From Acidobacteriaceae bacterium (lineage in GTDB: Bacteria > Acidobacteriota > Terriglobia > Terriglobales > Acidobacteriaceae), in the NCBI GenBank assembly GCA_025355505.1, contig JANXZM010000026.1:1-62043 (forward strand): 62,043 nt of DNA. The letters run 5' to 3'. Positions within the stretch are counted from its first letter, which is position 1. Each line of letters opens with the position of its first letter. The position numbers and the translations under genes are program-made. The notes below the pieces were generated by a model. The model saw nothing but the letters and a program-made list of their open reading frames with translations, did not search any database and was not told where the DNA came from. Below are positions 4,080 to 54,281 of this stretch, one piece after another.

Positions 4080-5615
4080 CTACTGGGTGCCGATCTCAGC
4101 CGTCTTGAGAAAGTCATAATTTCCCGACGGATTCAGCGTCACGTTCCGCACACGCCGCGTGTGCACAAGCAAGTTATCAAAGTACCAAAGGTTGATGTAC
4201 GGGACATCCTGTGCCAGCACTTCCTGAACTTCGGCGTACAGCCGCTTGCGGGTATTCCGATCGGTCTGGCGGCGCGCCTCGTCGATCAGGCCATCGATAC
4301 GCGGATTGGAATAGAAGCCGCGGTTTGCGCCTTGGGGCGGGAATCGGTTGGAGTGAAACGAATATTCGAAAATATCGGGGTCTTCGTTCCCGCCGATCCA
4401 GCGCAACGAATAAAGCTGAAAAGCGCCGCTGGTGACGTCGGCGAAAAACGTAGCGAACTCGAACGTGCGAATGTCGAGCGCAATTCCCACGTCGTGCAAT
4501 TGCTGTTGCAACACCGCCGCCAGAAGGCGCGTTGACTCCTCCGTGGACGTTTTCATCGTCAGATGAAAACGAACGCCGTCGCGAGTCGGGTAGCCGGCCG
4601 CATCCAGCATCTGGCGAGCCTTCTCCGGATTGTGCGGATAAGCCGCCACGTCCGGGTCATACGCCCAGCTTTGCGGTGGGAGCACACTCAGGGCCGGTTG
4701 CGCAAAGCCGCGCCAGATGTAGCGCAGAAGCGGACCGCGGTCGATGGCATACGCGATCGCCTGGCGAACCCGCACATCCTTCAACGTCGGATCGCGAAGG
4801 TTAAACGCGAGATAGGAAAGCACCGTGCCGGGCGCGCGCTCCACCTGTAAGTTCGGCTCGCGCTCCAGCGCCACAATGGTGTCGGAAGTAAGTGCATTGA
4901 TCGCGGCATCGGCGCTGCCCTTGCGCAATTCCAGCGCCCGCGTCGTCGTGTCGGGCACAACAGTAAAGCGTACCCTGGCCAGGCGCGCCTTCACTCCCCA
5001 GTAGTTGTCGTTGCGCTCGACGACGACTTCCTTATCTTGTTCTGCGCTGACAAACTTGAATGGCCCCGACCCGATCGGCTTCCGCGTTATCTCGTCGAGC
5101 GACCCATACGGGACAATCCCACTCGCCCCCTCCGAAAGATTCCAGAGCAAGCTCGCGTTAGGCTCCTTCAAATGAAATACCACCGTGAACTCGTCGGGAG
5201 CCTCGATGTGTTCCACGAAACGGTACGCCGCCGATTTCGTACTGCGCATCTTTCCCTCGAGCAGGGAATCGAACGTCCACTTCACGTCGCGGGAAGTAAG
5301 CGGCCGCCCATCGTGAAAGGTAACGCCGCGATGCAGATGGAAGATGTAGGTGAACGGATCTGGAATCTCCCAACTCTCCGCCAGCCCGGGCTGAACCTCT
5401 AAGTGCTGGTCGCGCGTCAGCAGCGCATCGAAGATTAACTCGCCAATGCGCTCCGATTGCGCATCAATCCCCACCCGCGGGTCAAGATTGGTAGGGCTGC
5501 TCTCAATAATCATCACCAACGTGTTGGGATCGGAAGCTCGCGAGCAGGAGAGCAGAGGTAGCACCCATCCCCCAACCATTAAAAAAGCAATTGTCATTCT
5601 GAAAACAATTGCCAT
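4080..5615 (-). CDS. ABC-type oligopeptide/dipeptide-binding lipoprotein (SBP_bac_5 family)
   Basis: Extracellular solute-binding protein of the OppA/DppA/NikA type. A lipoprotein signal ends in LPLLSC. Family signatures follow, including NLDPRVGIDAQSERIGELIFDALL, FHLHRGVTFHDGRPLTSRDVKWT and IAYAIDRGPLL. About 510 residues from the start chosen here. The open frame continues upstream to 5822, but that part is encoded by an 18-bp repeat array. The ATG at 5615 gives MAIVFRMTIAFL, which supplies a positive n-region. ATGs at 5597 and 5579 are alternatives. No permease or ATPase genes are adjacent. It lies downstream of nagZ-anmK on the same strand, so a role in taking up muropeptide-derived peptides, as with MppA, is plausible but inferred. 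Confidence 0.85.
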   Translation of the reverse strand: MAIVFRMTIAFLMVGGWVLPLLSCSRASDPNTLVMIIESSPTNLDPRVGIDAQSERIGELIFDALLTRDQHLEVQPGLAESWEIPDPFTYIFHLHRGVTFHDGRPLTSRDVKWTFDSLLEGKMRSTKSAAYRFVEHIEAPDEFTVVFHLKEPNASLLWNLSEGASGIVPYGSLDEITRKPIGSGPFKFVSAEQDKEVVVERNDNYWGVKARLARVRFTVVPDTTTRALELRKGSADAAINALTSDTIVALEREPNLQVERAPGTVLSYLAFNLRDPTLKDVRVRQAIAYAIDRGPLLRYIWRGFAQPALSVLPPQSWAYDPDVAAYPHNPEKARQMLDAAGYPTRDGVRFHLTMKTSTEESTRLLAAVLQQQLHDVGIALDIRTFEFATFFADVTSGAFQLYSLRWIGGNEDPDIFEYSFHSNRFPPQGANRGFYSNPRIDGLIDEARRQTDRNTRKRLYAEVQEVLAQDVPYINLWYFDNLLVHTRRVRNVTLNPSGNYDFLKTAEIGTQ

Positions 5616-5746
5616 TCTGGAAACAATTGTCCTTCTGAAAACAATTGTCATCCTGTAAACAATTGCCATTCTGGAAACAATTGTCCTCCTGGAAATAATT
5701 GTCATCATGTAAATAATTGTCATCCTGAGCGAAGCGAAGGACCTGC
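5588..5746. repeat. 18-bp tandem array (about 8 units) ending in a dispersed GTCATCCTGAGCG element
   Basis: Units of the form CAATTGTCATTCTGAAAA repeat with an 18-bp period from about 5588. The last unit runs into the element that begins GTCATCCTGAGCG and ends AAGGACCTGC (5719-5746). Units 2-4 and 5-7 match as triplets (GCCATTCTGG, GTCCTNCTG, GTCATCNTG), so a 54-bp higher-order repeat is visible. On the minus strand the array is open and encodes a six-residue repeat (MTIVFR-like) in frame with the downstream lipoprotein. It is not a CRISPR array because there are no unique spacers. Confidence 0.85.
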
Positions 5747-5930
5747 TTTTTGCGCGCGCCCGCACCCCCGCCTCACGCATACGAAATCTTCCCCAGAATC
5801 GCCGCTGTCCTAATAGAAACAATTGTCATCCTAAAAACGACTGTCATCCTGAGCGAAGCGAAGGACCTGCCCTTTGCGCGCCCCCGCACCCCCGCCTCAC
5901 GCATACGAGATCTTCCCCAGAATCGCCGCC
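5719..5930. repeat. 124-bp tandem duplication of repeat element plus anmK 3' end
   Basis: 5719-5806 and 5843-5930 are near-identical copies offset by 124 bp. Each contains the GTCATCCTGAGCG element followed by the last ~11 codons of anmK (minus-strand peptide ending GKISYA). The right copy belongs to the intact gene and the left one is a remnant. Between them lie two further 18-bp array units (CAATTGTCATCCTAAAAA type). Confidence 0.85.
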
Positions 5931-7060
5931 CGCTTCGCTCCCGTAGCCGACGGCACATTGCTCGGCCGCCGATGCCACGTCTCATGCGCCAGCAAGGCAA
6001 AAGCCACTGCCTCCTTCGCTTCCGCCGGAAGGCCAAACTCATCCGAGAAACGCAGGCCGATGCCCAGAGGGGCGATTTCAGCGCGCAACATGGCCATCAG
6101 CGTCGGATTCTTCGCGCCTCCGCCCGAAACAATCATTTCGCGATCGCGGCGCTCCGCCCCGAATCGCGGCATCACGAATCGTTGCACCGCGTCCGCAATC
6201 GATCGCGCCGTCAACGCCGTTGCCGTCGCCACCACGTCGGGCTTACTGGCGCCGCGGCAGAGCTGAAGAAATCGGCCCGCGTACTCCCGTCCAAATTCCT
6301 CGCGCCCCGCCGTTCGCGGAGGCTTCTGCCGGAAAAAGTGCGCGCGTAGCAACCGTGTAGTCACGCCATCCAGTACGCGTCCTGAGGCTGCGACTTTGCC
6401 GTCGCGGTCAAAGCGCTTCCCGAAAAGCTCTTCCATCACCGCATCCATCACCATGTTGCCGGGACCGGTGTCGAAAGCAACCACTTGGCGCAGCGACGCG
6501 CCCGCGGCAATCGCCGTCAGATTCGCAATTCCACCAATGTTCTGCGCAATGCGCCCCACTCGCCGGTCGCGATAGAGAAGATAGTCGAGGAACGGCACCA
6601 GCGGCGCGCCCTTGCCGCCCGCTGCCATATCCGCCGGACGAAAATCAGAGACCACCGGCACTCCCAGCCGCGCCGCGATCACCGCGCCTTCACCCGTTTG
6701 CCACGTCACCGCCAATTTTCGCCCGAGAAATCGTTCCGCCACTCCCTGGTGATACAGCGTCTGCCCATGACAGCCCACCAGGTCAAGTTTCACGCGATGC
6801 TTGCGCGCCGTTGTCGCCACCGCCTCCGCGTACAGTTCGCCCAGAAGAAAATTCAGACGGGCCAGATCCGCGACACGGGCCAATTCCGCGTTCATCATTC
6901 CCAAAATTGCGCGCCGCACCGGGGCAGGGAACGAATACTCTTCGTGACCAAGAAGCGTGTAGCGCGGACACTCTTGTCCGCGTTCCGCCAGTCGTACCAG
7001 TGCCACGTTAATTCCATCCACCGAAGTCCCGCTCATCACGCCGGCAATCATCATGCTCAT
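5897..7060 (-). CDS. anmK: Anhydro-N-acetylmuramic acid kinase
   Basis: 387 residues, the usual AnmK length. The ATP/sugar-kinase signature GVMSGTSVDGINVALV is at the N-terminus, with LDLVGCHGQTLYHQG, FDTGPGNMVMDAVM and IVSGGGAKNPTLM downstream. AnmK phosphorylates 1,6-anhydroMurNAc to MurNAc-6-phosphate during cell-wall recycling. The start ATG overlaps the nagZ stop (ATGA), which implies translational coupling. Its 3' end is duplicated downstream together with a repeat element, but this copy is full length. Confidence 0.95.
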   Translation of the reverse strand: MSMMIAGVMSGTSVDGINVALVRLAERGQECPRYTLLGHEEYSFPAPVRRAILGMMNAELARVADLARLNFLLGELYAEAVATTARKHRVKLDLVGCHGQTLYHQGVAERFLGRKLAVTWQTGEGAVIAARLGVPVVSDFRPADMAAGGKGAPLVPFLDYLLYRDRRVGRIAQNIGGIANLTAIAAGASLRQVVAFDTGPGNMVMDAVMEELFGKRFDRDGKVAASGRVLDGVTTRLLRAHFFRQKPPRTAGREEFGREYAGRFLQLCRGASKPDVVATATALTARSIADAVQRFVMPRFGAERRDREMIVSGGGAKNPTLMAMLRAEIAPLGIGLRFSDEFGLPAEAKEAVAFALLAHETWHRRPSNVPSATGAKRAAILGKISYA

Positions 7061-12917: not shown

Positions 12918-12924
12918 AGGGAGA

Positions 12925-13075
12925 TTTGTAATTTTGTAATCTCTAAAGTTGTAATTTGCAATCTTGTCTTGAGTCCAGCGTCCCTATCCTCACGAAGCAC
13001 TTTTTCCAGTTCCACTACTTTAGCCTGCTGGAAGGTTTTCAGATTACCAAATTACAAATTACAAAATTACAAATT
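12925..13075. repeat. Inverted AT-rich repeat (TTGTAATTTTGTAATC) between mutS and the GalT-like gene
   Basis: 12925-12959 has TTTGTAATTTTGTAATC-type words and 13041-13075 the reverse complement (GATTACCAAATTACAAATT). They flank ~80 bp between the two divergent genes. A similar inverted pair is at 54190-54264. The promoters of both genes must lie here or within the arms. Confidence 0.55.
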
Positions 13076-18526: not shown

Positions 18527-19854
18527 ACTTCCAGCTCATCGGCGTCAATCACAAGACCGCGCCGGTCGAGGTGCGCGAACGCCTGGCTATTCCTGAATCG
18601 CGTTTGCCCGAGGCGTGCAAAAAACTCGCCGAGCATCCCGCCGTTTCCGAAGGCATGATCGTTTCCACATGCAACCGCGTCGAATTTATCGCCAACATGA
18701 AGAACGGCACCGGCGACCTGCGCGAATTTCTGCGCGAGTATTTCGATACCGATTTCAGTCAGTTTGAAAGTCATCTCTACGAATTTCGCGAAGATGAGGC
18801 CATCCGCCACATCTTTCGCGTCGCCTCCAGCCTCGACTCCATGGTTGTCGGCGAGCCTCAGATTCTCGGACAAGTCAAGGAAGCTTATGCCACCGCCCGC
18901 GCGGTTGGAGCGGTCCGCGCGCAACTGGATCAGTTGCTTACCCGGGCGTTTGCCGTGGCCAAGCGCGTCCGGACCGAGACCGCCGTCGGATCCTCTTCGG
19001 TTTCGATTGCTTCGGTGGCCGTCGAACTGGCCAAGAAAATCTTCGGGAGCCTCAACGGCAAGAGCGTGTACCTGGTAGGGGCAGGGAAGATGAGCGAGTT
19101 AGCCGCCCGCCATCTGCTGGCCCACGGCGCCGCCTCTCTGTTTGTCGCCAACCGCACCTACGATCGCGCCATCCGGCTGGCGCAGAAATTTAACGGACAA
19201 GCCATCGAGTTTGCCCGGCTCTATGACACCTGCGATCGCGCCGACATTGTGATTACCTCGACCGGCTCTCCGCACTTCATTTTCAAGCGCGAACACGGCG
19301 AAAAGCTCATGGCGCTGCGCAAAAATAAGCCCATGTTCTTCATCGATATCGCAGTTCCGCGCGACGTCGACCCGGAAATGAACAAACTCGACGGCATTTT
19401 CGTCTATGACATCGACGATCTGCAGCAAGCGGTCTCGTCGCACGTCGCCGACCGCAAGAAGGAAGCGGAAAAAGCCGAGGCCATCGTCAATGGCGAGGTC
19501 GACAAATTCCACGCTCGCCTCCAGACTCTCGACGTCGTTCCCACCATCGTCAGCTTACAGGACCATCTCGAAACCATTCGCCAGGCCGAGATTGATCGCG
19601 TCCGTGGCCGCCTCGGTTCCATGACCACCGACCAGGAACTTGCGGTCGAATCGCTGACTCGTGGCATCGTCAACAAAATCATGCATACCCCCATCAGCAC
19701 CCTCAAAACGGCGGCGCGTGATCCCGAATCAACCACCGTCATCGAACTGGTGCGTCGCCTCTTCAACCTGCATAGCGAAGATGAAGAAAAGCAAGCTGCG
19801 GCATCCAAGTCCGCACGTCGCCCGGATTCAAAAACAAAAGGAGTGGAAAACTAA
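18523..19854 (+). CDS. hemA: Glutamyl-tRNA reductase
   Basis: 443 residues. N-terminal catalytic domain with the active-site Cys in [10 protein letters not shown] (about residue 50), [20 protein letters not shown], an NADPH domain with [17 protein letters not shown], and a C-terminal dimerisation helix. First committed enzyme of C5 heme synthesis: it reduces glutamyl-tRNA to glutamate-1-semialdehyde. The start is fixed by [19 protein letters not shown] and the 4-bp overlap with the upstream gene. It overlaps hemC by one base (TAATG), so the three genes form a tight operon. Confidence 0.96.
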
Positions 19855-20789
19855 TGGCCCGCCTGCGCATTGGCTCCCGCGGCTCGCAACTCGCTCTCTG
19901 GCAGGCCCATCACATTTCCAACCTGCTTCGCGCTCAGGGTCATACCGTGGAACTCGATATCATCAAGACCACCGGCGATAAAATCACCGACGTTGCCCTC
20001 GCTAAAGTTGGCACCAAGGGCATGTTCACCAAGGAAATCGAAGAAGCCCTCGTCGAAAACCGGGTTGACCTCGCCGTGCACAGCTTGAAAGATTTGCCCA
20101 CGGAGCTGGCCGCCGATTTTGAAATTGCCGCCATCACCACTCGCGAAAATCCACACGACGTTTTTTGTTCCGTGAAGTTTGCCGGCATCGAAGCGCTGCC
20201 GCAACAGGCGAGCGTTGGCACCAGCAGCCTGCGTCGTCAGGCCCAGTTGTTGGCACTGCGTCCCGATCTCAAGATTCACCCGCTCCGCGGCAATGTGGAT
20301 ACGCGCCTGCGCAAGCTCGAATCCGGCGACTACGATGCCATCATTCTGGCCGCCGCCGGCCTGAACCGCCTGGGCAAGACGCAACTCGTACGTCAGGTGA
20401 TCCCCGCGGAAATGATGACTCCCGCCGCCGGACAAGGCGCCTTGGGAATCGAAATTCGCAACGGCGACAGCGCAATGCGGGCGTTGCTTGCCTTTCTTGA
20501 TGACGCTGCCGCCCGCGCCACCACCACCTGCGAGCGCGCGCTGCTCAACAAACTAGGCGGCGGCTGCCAAGTCCCCATTGGGGCTTTCGCTGAAATAAAT
20601 GGAAACCGCATTCGCCTGAACGCCCTTGTAGCCCATCCCGACGGAACCAAAGTGCTGCGCGAAACTCGCGACGGCGACGACCCCGTGCGCTTGGGCGAAG
20701 AAGTCGGCGAAACCCTTCTCCGTCGAGGCGGCGATGTTATTCTCGAAGAAGTCTACGGCAAAGGCTTTGCACTGCCGCAGCAACCATGA
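19854..20789 (+). CDS. hemC: Porphobilinogen deaminase (hydroxymethylbilane synthase)
   Basis: 311 residues, typical length. Motifs are [46 protein letters not shown] and [10 protein letters not shown], whose Cys carries the dipyrromethane cofactor. It joins four porphobilinogens into hydroxymethylbilane. Directly coupled to hemA. After its stop comes an 18-bp repeat array before hemD. Confidence 0.97.
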
Positions 20790-20800
20790 GAGATCGTTGA

Positions 20801-20980
20801 GTTGAAACGTGTCACCGATTTAAAACGTGTTATCGGTTGAAACGGGGCACCAATTTAAAACATGTCATCAATTTAAAACGTGTTATCGGTTTGAAACGTG
20901 GCACCAATTTGAAACGTGTCATCGGTTGAAACTTGTCATTTATTTAAAACGTGTCATCCTGAGCGAAGCGAAGGACCTGC
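20801..20980. repeat. 17-18-bp tandem array (about 9 units) ending in the GTCATCCTGAGCG element
   Basis: Units such as TTTAAAACGTGTTATCGG repeat from about 20801. The ninth unit, starting with TTTAAAACG, leads into the same element seen at 5719 (GTCATCCTGAGCGAAGCG...). Three-unit order recurs: GTTATCG, GGCACCAA, GTCATCAA then GTTATCGG, GGCACCAA, GTCATCG. The 9-base flank differs completely from the array at 5588, but period, higher-order pattern and terminal element are the same. It fills most of the 253-bp hemC-hemD gap. The upstream open frame of hemD reads through it as junk. Confidence 0.85.
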
Positions 20981-21042: not shown

Positions 21043-21864
21043 ATGCGCAAGCCCAACGAAAACCATCCCCTGGCAGGAACCCGGATTCTAGTCGGCCGCG
21101 CCCGCCACCAGGCCGGCAGCCTTTCTACCAGCCTGCGCAGCCTGGGCGCATCTGTAACCGAAATCCCCTTCATTGAGATTTGCAAGCCGCAATCGTACCG
21201 GCCACTCGACGATGCTCTGAAAAATATCAAAAGCTACCACTGGCTTATTCTGACGAGCGCCAACGGCGTCGAAGCAATGTGGGAGCGGGTCCGGAAACTT
21301 CGCATCACGCGCCGCACTCTCAAGCATCTCCAGATTGCCGCGATCGGTCCAGCAACCAAGAAGGCGATTGTGAAGCACGGTCTGAAGGTCAAGATGGTTC
21401 CCGAGGAGTACGTCGCCGAGTCTGTAGTCAAGGGGCTGCGCGAGAAGGTCAACGGCAAGCGCGTCTTGCTGGTGCGAGCCAAAGTCGCGCGCGACGTGAT
21501 TCCAGAAGAACTGCGCGCCGCCGGAGCCGAAGTCGATGTGGTCGAAGCTTACGAAACTGTGCTGCCCGAGAAATCGCGCGTGCGCCTGCGCGCGCTGATG
21601 AAAAGTGCGGCTCGCCGCCCGCACGTCGTGACCTTTACCAGTTCCTCCACCGCAAAAAACTTTGCCGAACTGCTCGGCACCTTCAAGGCAGGTTCACTCA
21701 GCGCAGGGTTGCTCAAGAATGTCCAGTTTGCTTCGATAGGTCCGGTGACTTCGGCGACGCTGCGCGAATTGCAGCTGCCGGTCGCAATCCAGGCCCATGA
21801 ATTCACGATGGGTGGACTGATCCGAGCGATTGTGCTCGCCCGCTACGCGGAAACCTCCGCCTAG
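21043..21864 (+). CDS. hemD: Uroporphyrinogen-III synthase
   Basis: About 273 residues from ATG 21043 (MRKPNENHPLAGTRILVGR). The reading frame extends upstream but only through repeat sequence. Two alternating Rossmann-like domains with GTRILVGRARHQAGSL near the start, LILTSANGVEAMW, IAAIGPATKKAI and VVTFTSSSTAKNF. It closes the linear tetrapyrrole with ring D inversion. In line with hemA-hemC, but separated from hemC by a repeat array that may affect co-expression. Confidence 0.92.
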   Translation: MRKPNENHPLAGTRILVGRARHQAGSLSTSLRSLGASVTEIPFIEICKPQSYRPLDDALKNIKSYHWLILTSANGVEAMWERVRKLRITRRTLKHLQIAAIGPATKKAIVKHGLKVKMVPEEYVAESVVKGLREKVNGKRVLLVRAKVARDVIPEELRAAGAEVDVVEAYETVLPEKSRVRLRALMKSAARRPHVVTFTSSSTAKNFAELLGTFKAGSLSAGLLKNVQFASIGPVTSATLRELQLPVAIQAHEFTMGGLIRAIVLARYAETSA

Positions 21865-53427: not shown

Positions 53428-54183
53428 TCAGATCGACTTCACCGGAATCGCCACCACATCATCCACCAGGCCGACTTCCTTCTGCACAAACGGCTCAGCG
53501 TAGGTGACACCGCCGAGCATGCCGTAATAGCGGGCCATGGATTCCACCCGCGCCCGAATTTCTTTTTGCGCGGGAAAGATTCCGCTGCCGGCCTCCTGAT
53601 CGGTGAACTGAGACTTGTAAGCCATCAGCGAGGCGAAGCGCGTTTCGAACTGGTCGGTGATGTCCACAACAAACGTAGGCCGCACGTCGCGGTACAGGCT
53701 GGCGTAAATAATTTTGAAAGGACGATGAGGTGAAGCCGCATCGGTGACGTTTTCACTGGGAGCTGACAACTGAGAGCTGACGGCTGTGTCCAGTTTGGCC
53801 AGTCCCGCCAGAAAGCTGGCTTCATATCCCAGCACCGAGGCGGTGTAGTGGTCGGGATGGCGCCCCTCCCAGTAGGGAAGGATCAGCACTCGCGGACGCT
53901 GTTCGCGGATTACGCGAGCGACCTTCAGGCGATTCTCCCAGGTATTTTCAACGCGGCCGTCGGGAATATCGAGCGCGTGGCGCCAGGAAACTTTCAGGAT
54001 GCGTGCTGCCTCCGCCGCTTCACGCGCGCGATCTTCAATCGTGCCCCGCGTCCCCATCTCACCTTGCGCGAGGTCGAGGATGCCGGTGCGGTATCCTCGC
54101 TCGGCCATTTTGAGCAGAGTTCCGGCGCAGGTTTGTTCTACATCATCGCGGTGTGCGGCTAGGGCGAGAATGTCGACAGGCAT
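53428..54183 (-). CDS. bshB1: PIG-L/BshB1-family N-acetylglucosaminyl deacetylase (bacillithiol-type)
   Basis: 251 residues from ATG 54183 (MPVDILALAAHRDDVEQTCAG). Zinc motif is AAHRDDVE with His, Asp and Asp, plus GRHPDHYTAS (His). MGTRGTIEDRAREAAEAA and DGRVENTWENRLKVARVIRE match BshB1. BshB1 deacetylates GlcNAc-malate in bacillithiol synthesis; BshA and BshC are not in this window. Residues about 133-143 (SSQLSAPSEN) coincide with a CTGACAACTGAGAGCTGAC repeat and seem to be an extra loop. Confidence 0.85.
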   Translation of the reverse strand: MPVDILALAAHRDDVEQTCAGTLLKMAERGYRTGILDLAQGEMGTRGTIEDRAREAAEAARILKVSWRHALDIPDGRVENTWENRLKVARVIREQRPRVLILPYWEGRHPDHYTASVLGYEASFLAGLAKLDTAVSSQLSAPSENVTDAASPHRPFKIIYASLYRDVRPTFVVDITDQFETRFASLMAYKSQFTDQEAGSGIFPAQKEIRARVESMARYYGMLGGVTYAEPFVQKEVGLVDDVVAIPVKSI

Positions 54184-54189
54184 TTTGTA

Positions 54190-54264
54190 ATTTCGTAATC
54201 GGGTAATTGTGTAATTTAAAACCAAAAACTTCTCAGGTTCAAAATTACACAATTACCCGATTAC
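54190..54264. repeat. Inverted AT-rich repeat (GGGTAATTGTGTAATTT)
   Basis: TAATCGGGTAATTGTGTAA and its complement around 54241-54263 (TTACACAATTACCCGATTA) form a long stem between bshB1 (minus) and the ABC-2 permease (minus, upstream). Could be a terminator or attenuator, but a related inverted pair is at 12925-13075. Confidence 0.6.
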
Positions 54265-54281
54265 AAGATTACAGAATCGCT

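Follow-up and report, generated by a model that had tools for sequence, protein, structure and literature searches.

Short head-side tandem arrays beside TGTC-tagged REP-like elements in an Acidobacteriaceae genome and other bacteria

Arrays, genes and the dispersed element in the window

The window, i.e., the whole stretch of 62,043 nucleotides that was analysed, is located on contig JANXZM010000026.1 of an Acidobacteriaceae genome (GCA_025355505.1; 4.16 Mb, 119 contigs). Two short tandem arrays were found in it, array 1 flanked by anmK and the gene of a solute-binding protein and array 2 by hemC and hemD (Table 1). An earlier note, made from the letters alone, had described two arrays of about 8 and 9 units with a 17-18-bp period, unlike local flanks, and a last unit that runs into a full dispersed element, and all of this was borne out. 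By TRF, array 1 was placed at 5584-5728 (period 18, 8.1 copies, 83% matches; further periods 36 and 54), and array 2 at 20805-20958 (period 18, 8.7 copies, 71% matches; further periods 35, 53, and 54). The GTCATC-like heads of array 1 are spaced exactly 18 bp, i.e., 5593, 5611, 5629, 5647, 5665, 5683, 5701, and 5719, and the nine heads of array 2 are spaced 17-18 bp, i.e., 20811, 20829, 20846, 20864, 20882, 20900, 20918, 20935, and 20953. The last head of both arrays enters an identical 28-bp sequence, GTCATCCTGAGCGAAGCGAAGGACCTGC, which occurs a third time at 5843. This third occurrence belongs to a 124-bp tandem duplication that took the last two array 1 units and the element downstream.

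Table 1. Positions of the arrays, elements and neighbouring genes in the window
Feature	Position	Strand	Remark
Solute-binding protein gene (SBP_bac_5, PF00496, E 4.5e-94)	4080..5579	-	Start codon tentative; just past the outer end of array 1
Array 1, seven truncated 18-bp units	5588..5718	+	Local flank AAACAATT + head GTCATCCTG and variants
Eighth head of array 1, dispersed TGTC-tagged REP-like element	5719..5746	+	
Tandem duplication of 124 bp, 1.9 copies	5692..5929	+	Last array 1 units, element and anmK 3' end
Second element copy	5843..5870	+	Two array units ahead (heads 5807, 5825)
anmK (PF03702, E 7.4e-96)	5897..7060	-	Tail side of the element
hemC (PF01379, E 2.2e-84)	19854..20789	+	Upstream of array 2
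Array 2, eight truncated 17-18-bp units	20802..20952	+	Local flank TTTAAAACGT + head and variants
Ninth head of array 2, dispersed element	20953..20980	+	
hemD (PF02602, E 1.2e-65)	21043..21864	+	Downstream of the element of array 2; putative start codon, based on orthologues

A three-unit order of about 54 bp had also been claimed for both arrays. It was upheld only in part: the lag of three units ranked top in array 1 (unit-order shuffling, p = 0.049) and came second by a hair in array 2 (p = 0.079). A third array of the same genome (L027) gave p = 0.20 and an array of another species (L098) p = 0.74, and the order was rejected as a general rule because of this weakness in the shuffling test. 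A single three-unit duplication in each array would be enough to produce it.

On the minus strand of 5588-5746, the intact heads read as an in-frame ATGAC at 18-bp steps, directly ahead of the gene for the solute-binding protein. In relatives, the probable start codon of this gene seemingly lies inside an element head. Two other stretches of the window, 12924-13075 and 54182-54277, hold short AT-rich arrays in inverted pairs, with a TTTGTAAT-type facing a ATTACAAA-type, which are apparently another kind of dispersed facing repeat.

The element core, TTGTCATCCTGAGCGAAGCGAAGGACCT, was matched by 105 copies at ≤2 mismatches in the genome, and the reversed control gave 0. In the window, three matches were found at ≤3 mismatches, whereas 100 shuffles gave none. 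The copies read were singles, heads-outward inverted pairs, and tandem repeats of the full element at 31-50 bp. Of the 106 elements of this genome, 35 had a partner in inverted orientation no more than 110 bp away, i.e., a common arrangement but that of a minority. At L048 (G000:C107 near 41486), a palindromic element pair directly adjoins a 16-bp array, GGCAGTTCAAACAGAT, the putative head of which is much altered. In the DNA fold, the element forms a stem of 4 bp and 2 bp, an internal loop, and a loop of 3 nt, and its first A is unpaired in the GGACCT form and paired in the GGATCT form. The element contains the d(GCGAAGC) mini-hairpin, which is exceptionally stable. In the DNA energy model, the hairpin of the genus element is weak (-2.2 kcal/mol, 90 of 200 shuffles equal or better), and the Coxiellaceae-type hairpin reaches -9.0 kcal/mol (0 of 200).

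According to the accessible part of the paper of Di Nocera et al. 2013 (PMC3733652), CGTC REPs have an unpaired 5' CGTC tag or its TGTC variant, a stem of 8-9 bp opening with paired A and T, a loop of 4-5, and in most members a CCA 3' tail; head-outward dimers predominate, and there is no association with a transposase gene. In the element copies read here, TGTC stands directly before the arm, i.e., the TGTC variant of this tag. The element also resembles these REPs in its lack of a transposase gene, since of eight Y1 transposase (Y1_Tnp) matches in the genome, only one of the eight retrieved loci held the element; linkage to a RAYT was rejected on this count. The CCA tail is absent, because the window copies end in GGACCTGC and other copies of the genome in GGACCTATG and similar sequences. 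Therefore, the element is termed REP-like here and not filed as a CGTC REP. The features of GTAG REPs with RAYT, i.e., a GTAG or GTGG tag and a flanking RAYT, were not found, as the tag is TGTC and there is no consistent Y1_Tnp neighbour. In Rfam, no family matched at the gathering score, and one sub-threshold match (21.8 of 48 bits) was located at array 1 and none at array 2.

Frequency, polarity and breadth of the arrays

An exact GTCATC at 10-40 bp before the element was found 100 times in 15 of 41 genomes, all 15 of the same genus, to which the genome of the window and G010 belong, and 0 times with the reversed control. The lags of these matches were 15-21 bp in 66, 10-14 bp in one, and longer in 33, among which are full-element repeats. 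Across the 24 genus genomes there are 898 exact elements; 66 of these carry the head at 15-21 bp, where about 1.5 would be expected, and the 66 are a lower bound as an exact GTCATC was demanded. The possibility that elements elsewhere have no such arrays, which would have told against the earlier note, thus fails. With head copies of at least 5/6 matches, and with 18 of the 106 elements excluded for lying within or directly behind full-element repeats, the genome of the window showed a head copy for 21 of 88 elements at lags of 15-20, 0 of 88 at 8-14, and 5 of 88 at 21-27. The frequency varies between genomes, i.e., 20 matches on 76 elements in G000, 2 on 72 in G012, and 0 on 57 in G003. The 9-nt flanks before paired heads agreed at 5.76 positions within loci versus 3.54 between loci (68 loci), and many single head pairs are too diverged for a visible duplication. 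A constant 18-bp period, which the note had put forward for testing, did not hold: the lags peak at 16-20 bp in the genus and at 16-28 bp in the Lachnospiraceae genome G063.

The arrays lie mainly on the head side. The tail word, AAGGACCT, gave 16 pairs in the 24 genus genomes, i.e., 15 full-element repeats of the genome of the window and one 28-bp pair in G012. Pairs at 15-21 bp on the tail side numbered 0 in these genomes, as a plain count of pairs, and inverted partners (35 of 106 in the genome of the window) hide some tails. Three Coxiellaceae genomes showed 219 head pairs at 10-40 bp, with full-element repeats included, and 12 tail pairs, all at ≥35 bp and 11 of them full elements. In G063, where the first 20 stretches had been chosen for arrays and the other 20 were tiles, 134 elements had 47 head arrays versus 7 tail arrays. 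The idea that arrays sit only on the head side therefore applies to the genus at 15-21 bp but not to G063, with tail arrays on 7 of its 134 elements. Head-side polarity is strong, not absolute.

Beyond the genus, species genomes were scanned for three TTGTCATC words 16-21 bp apart, so that the periods found are no evidence for a ruler. At least 119 stretches matched. Among 117 arrays tested, 78 were followed by a short inverted word and 39 were not, and many of the 39 resemble other repeats. This hairpin test, a 5-nt inverted word within 40 nt, is lenient and admits some non-REP repeats (L234, L267, and L279), none of which was dropped. Among the matches listed, clear TGTC-tagged hairpins with head arrays were seen in Fibrobacter, Coxiellaceae, Bacteroidales, Lachnospiraceae, Prevotella, Treponema, Gemmatimonadales, Nitrospiraceae, Patescibacteria, Comamonadaceae, and others. 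Head pairs were present in all 26 followed-up genomes, which were picked for holding an array, and the controls gave two matches in all. Head-side arrays beside related TGTC-tagged hairpins thus occur in several phyla.

Separate origins and candidate mechanisms

The orthologous spacers of both arrays were read wherever the neighbouring gene was found, i.e., in 22 of 24 genomes at locus 1 (anmK) and 23 of 24 at locus 2 (hemC-hemD), where G017 and G021 are ended by the contig. At locus 1, no head-sense element was found in G002, G012, and G021, and G022 has just a head-like stretch. Degenerate copies are held by G001, G005, and G013, an array-free single element by G003, G004, G006, G008, G009, and G011, and an inverted pair by G016. 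Two heads were counted in G010 and G019, three in G015 (one degenerate), four in G017, and eight in the genome of the window, and the arrays of relatives have their own flank in each. At locus 2, G008, G009, G018 (with a variant body), G019, and G020 carry an array-free single element, G003 has two heads 17 bp apart, and the genome of the window has nine; about half of the other genomes are without the element. By eye, the flank at the outer end of array 2 is similar to that of the single copies in siblings. The hemC-hemD spacers without a REP-like element (relatives L160, L162, L163, and L164) often hold arrays of a 7-bp word, e.g., CCTGAGA, with inverted copies opposite.

Since array-free elements stand at both loci in some siblings, the elements are older and the arrays grew later and separately. 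The array-free orthologous spacers and the own flanks support what the earlier note had proposed, i.e., an independent amplification of the flank-head junction at each locus. A shared start of array 1 with the arrays of G015 and G017 could have occurred, although flanks and counts differ. By contrast, the block transfer of a single ancestral array to both window sites, the other case that would have told against the earlier note, has next to no probability. Copying in blocks does exist, as a two-head stretch recurs in similar form, and with a common longer flank, at the G009 loci L101, L193, and L196. However, the flanks of the two window arrays differ, the local flanks are missing in siblings, and array-free elements stand at the same loci there, so the block move was rejected for the window arrays. 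The stretch common to the three G009 loci (TTGGTC GTCATC ... CTT GTCATCC) shows a two-head array that was seemingly copied along with its element.

Each unit consists of part of the hairpin 5' arm and a local flank whose mean is 10-11 nt with a wide spread. The flank part, taken as the lag minus the exactly shared head, had means of 11.0 (109 arrays), 10.0 (46 arrays), and 10.2 nt (9 arrays), with an sd of 3.4 for the 109 and 4.1 for the 46 and a range of 3-23, i.e., no sharp ruler. The shared head part had means of 8.5, 13.3, and 10.7 in the same sets, and these averages are rough because later mutations shorten the shared part. A longer element goes with a longer lag (22.1 vs 24.5 in G063, p = 0.006; rho 0.29, p = 0.002 in the mixed sample). 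Fourteen exact duplications had extra homology of 0-2 nt in eight cases and 3-6 nt in six, with older units upstream in several of the 3-6-nt cases and some of the 0-2-nt cases. With L219 and L238 left aside for their older units, 5 of the 14 showed 0-1 nt beyond the unit. A segment from upstream of the tag to inside the 5' arm was tandemly duplicated, separately at many loci.

The relation to replication was assessed by GC skew, which is only a proxy for fork direction and whose sign switches every 10-20 kb in the window. Head arrays were found on 34 of 73 lagging-sense elements of G063 versus 13 of 57 of the other sense (p = 0.006), with four tail-only elements left out of this head-versus-none table. 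The corresponding counts were 18/31 versus 9/24 in G061 (p = 0.18; 15/22 versus 4/18 at |skew| ≥0.03, p = 0.005) and 14/23 versus 5/16 in G010/G008 (p = 0.11). G047 had the opposite direction (7/9 lag, 5/6 lead). Pooled with G047 included, the odds ratio was 2.65 (p = 0.0008). The tail arrays of G063 lean the opposite way (5 lead, 2 lag). The 78 cross-phylum arrays, a sample without array-free controls, showed no bias with 8-kb skew (38/78). A general lagging-strand rule was rejected, as it fits three of four controlled samples but neither G047 nor the cross-phylum arrays. Most Coxiellaceae arrays (e.g., L225, L240, L272, L276, and L288) lie on the G-rich strand, whereas the Lachnospiraceae and Prevotella genomes are biased the other way.

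As the best reading, held tentatively and at somewhat less than even chances, we infer that the DNA is cut, copied, and rejoined on the tag side of the TGTC-tagged REP-like element. One strand would be opened on the 5' side of the tag, at a distance of about 10 nt, and copied forward until synthesis halts in the hairpin arm, and rejoining, a step we purely infer, would add one unit per round. The simplest agent would be an abortive action of the putative single-strand nuclease that moves these REPs. From two units on, ordinary slippage could gain or lose units, and one larger duplication could give the 54-bp order. This reading is preferred because it meets the polarity, the flank of about 10 nt at any locus, and the inner edge that tracks the hairpin arm. 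The 5 of 14 exact duplications with 0-1 nt argue for it, since homology is dispensable there. Against it stand the lack of a consistently linked Y1 transposase gene, the broad flank part, the tail arrays of Lachnospiraceae, the weak genus hairpin in the energy model, and the 3-6-nt homology in 6 of 14 exact duplications, which slippage predicts, although some of these have older units. The joining of staggered nicks by Ku was also considered. A match to Ku (PF02735) was present in 17 of the 24 genomes of the genus and absent from the array-bearing G000, G008, G009, and G018 (drafts, 83-99% complete), so Ku is not required, even if a single absence could be a draft gap.

The main rival, plain replication slippage, needs no REP-specific enzyme and seems possible, with a probability of about one in three by our estimate. 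A hairpin would form on the single-stranded, mostly lagging template, the polymerase would stall in the first arm, and the 3' end would slip back about 18 nt and recopy flank and head. Polymerase slippage in vitro at a hairpin with short direct repeats on either side is described in the accessible part of PMC4134008. Such slippage is consistent with the inner edge in the hairpin arm, the lag that grows with element length, the 3-6 nt of homology at some exact duplications, and the greater frequency of head arrays on lagging-sense elements (G063, the direction in G061 and G010/G008, and the pooled OR), with tail arrays of G063 leaning oppositely. However, a hairpin is alike from either side, so the strong head polarity in the genus and in Coxiellaceae is unaccounted for, and of the three features met by cutting and recopying, slippage meets only the inner edge at the arm. 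G047, the unbiased 78 cross-phylum arrays, and the several exact duplications with 0-1 nt also argue against it. An origin in two steps, i.e., duplication of whole element and flank as 30-50-bp units followed by deletion of the unstable hairpin from older copies, which would leave short head-flank units, is improbable. It would agree with the full-element repeats of 31-50 bp, some of which have internal losses, but the outer copies of these arrays retain their hairpins, and the genus lags are bunched, as 50 of the 80 in relatives fall at 16-20 bp and 1 at 25-29 bp, whereas varied deletions would spread broadly. Even less probable, and quite unlikely in our judgement, is selection that keeps the arrays as binding sites or regulatory repeats, e.g., as alternative start codons or leader sequence. 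The heads at locus 1 stand at a regular distance across species and the intact ones give the ATGAC repeats upstream of the solute-binding protein gene, but the adjoining genes and flanks are unrelated, close siblings lack the arrays, heads decay, and Rfam gave no family at the gathering score.

A wider form of the cutting and recopying model would posit a conserved, tag-recognising strand-processing activity that acts on TGTC/CGTC REPs in many phyla, opens the DNA upstream of the tag at a distance of about one helical turn, copies it again as far as the hairpin, and joins it. The head-side minisatellites would then be footprints of the mobilising enzyme. This extension is rather doubtful, at about one chance in four.

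Comparison with known systems

Short head-only arrays were not found described among the matches listed in open-access literature searches, and the search with the element core gave only matches unrelated by title. The mostly tag-side short arrays would be a readable by-product of REP spread, or a natural record of polymerase failure at hairpins. They would explain one class of bacterial minisatellites met in several phyla, in which the unit number varies from one related species to another, and might be of use as typing loci.

The Y1 transposases of IS200/IS605 and RAYT would recognise a 5' tag and hairpin and cut one strand, which would yield the observed polarity. To our knowledge, cutting, copying, and rejoining about 10 nt upstream is no known product of these enzymes. 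No such gene is consistently tied to the elements here, in a comparison that used the accessible part of PMC2817692.

Already in print, in the accessible texts, are the reiteration of whole REPs together with their flanks and, for Wolbachia VNTRs, slippage set off by hairpins. VNTR-105 and VNTR-141 of Wolbachia are tandem repeats with 23-bp hairpins of 9-bp stems, for which the authors suggest hairpin-triggered slippage; in the accessible part of that paper (PMC3287509), their periods are 105 and 141 bp with complete hairpins inside, which differs from the present arrays. The tandem REPIN/REP clusters of Pseudomonas fluorescens, as given in the accessible part of PMC3116915, also reiterate element and flanking sequence in tandem, but they are GTAG-type and consist of whole REPINs, or REPs 72-112 bp apart, versus the 16-26-bp head units here. 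The CGTC-tagged REPs, as far as the accessible text of PMC3733652 describes them, are alike in the short palindrome, the unpaired 5' tag with TGTC allowed, the occurrence of head-outward pairs, and the lack of a linked transposase gene, and how they spread without a known transposase is an open question in that source. The element here differs from them in its stem, interrupted in the DNA fold, and its end without CCA, and where whole REPs with flanks are reiterated there, the arrays here are short and comprise only heads.
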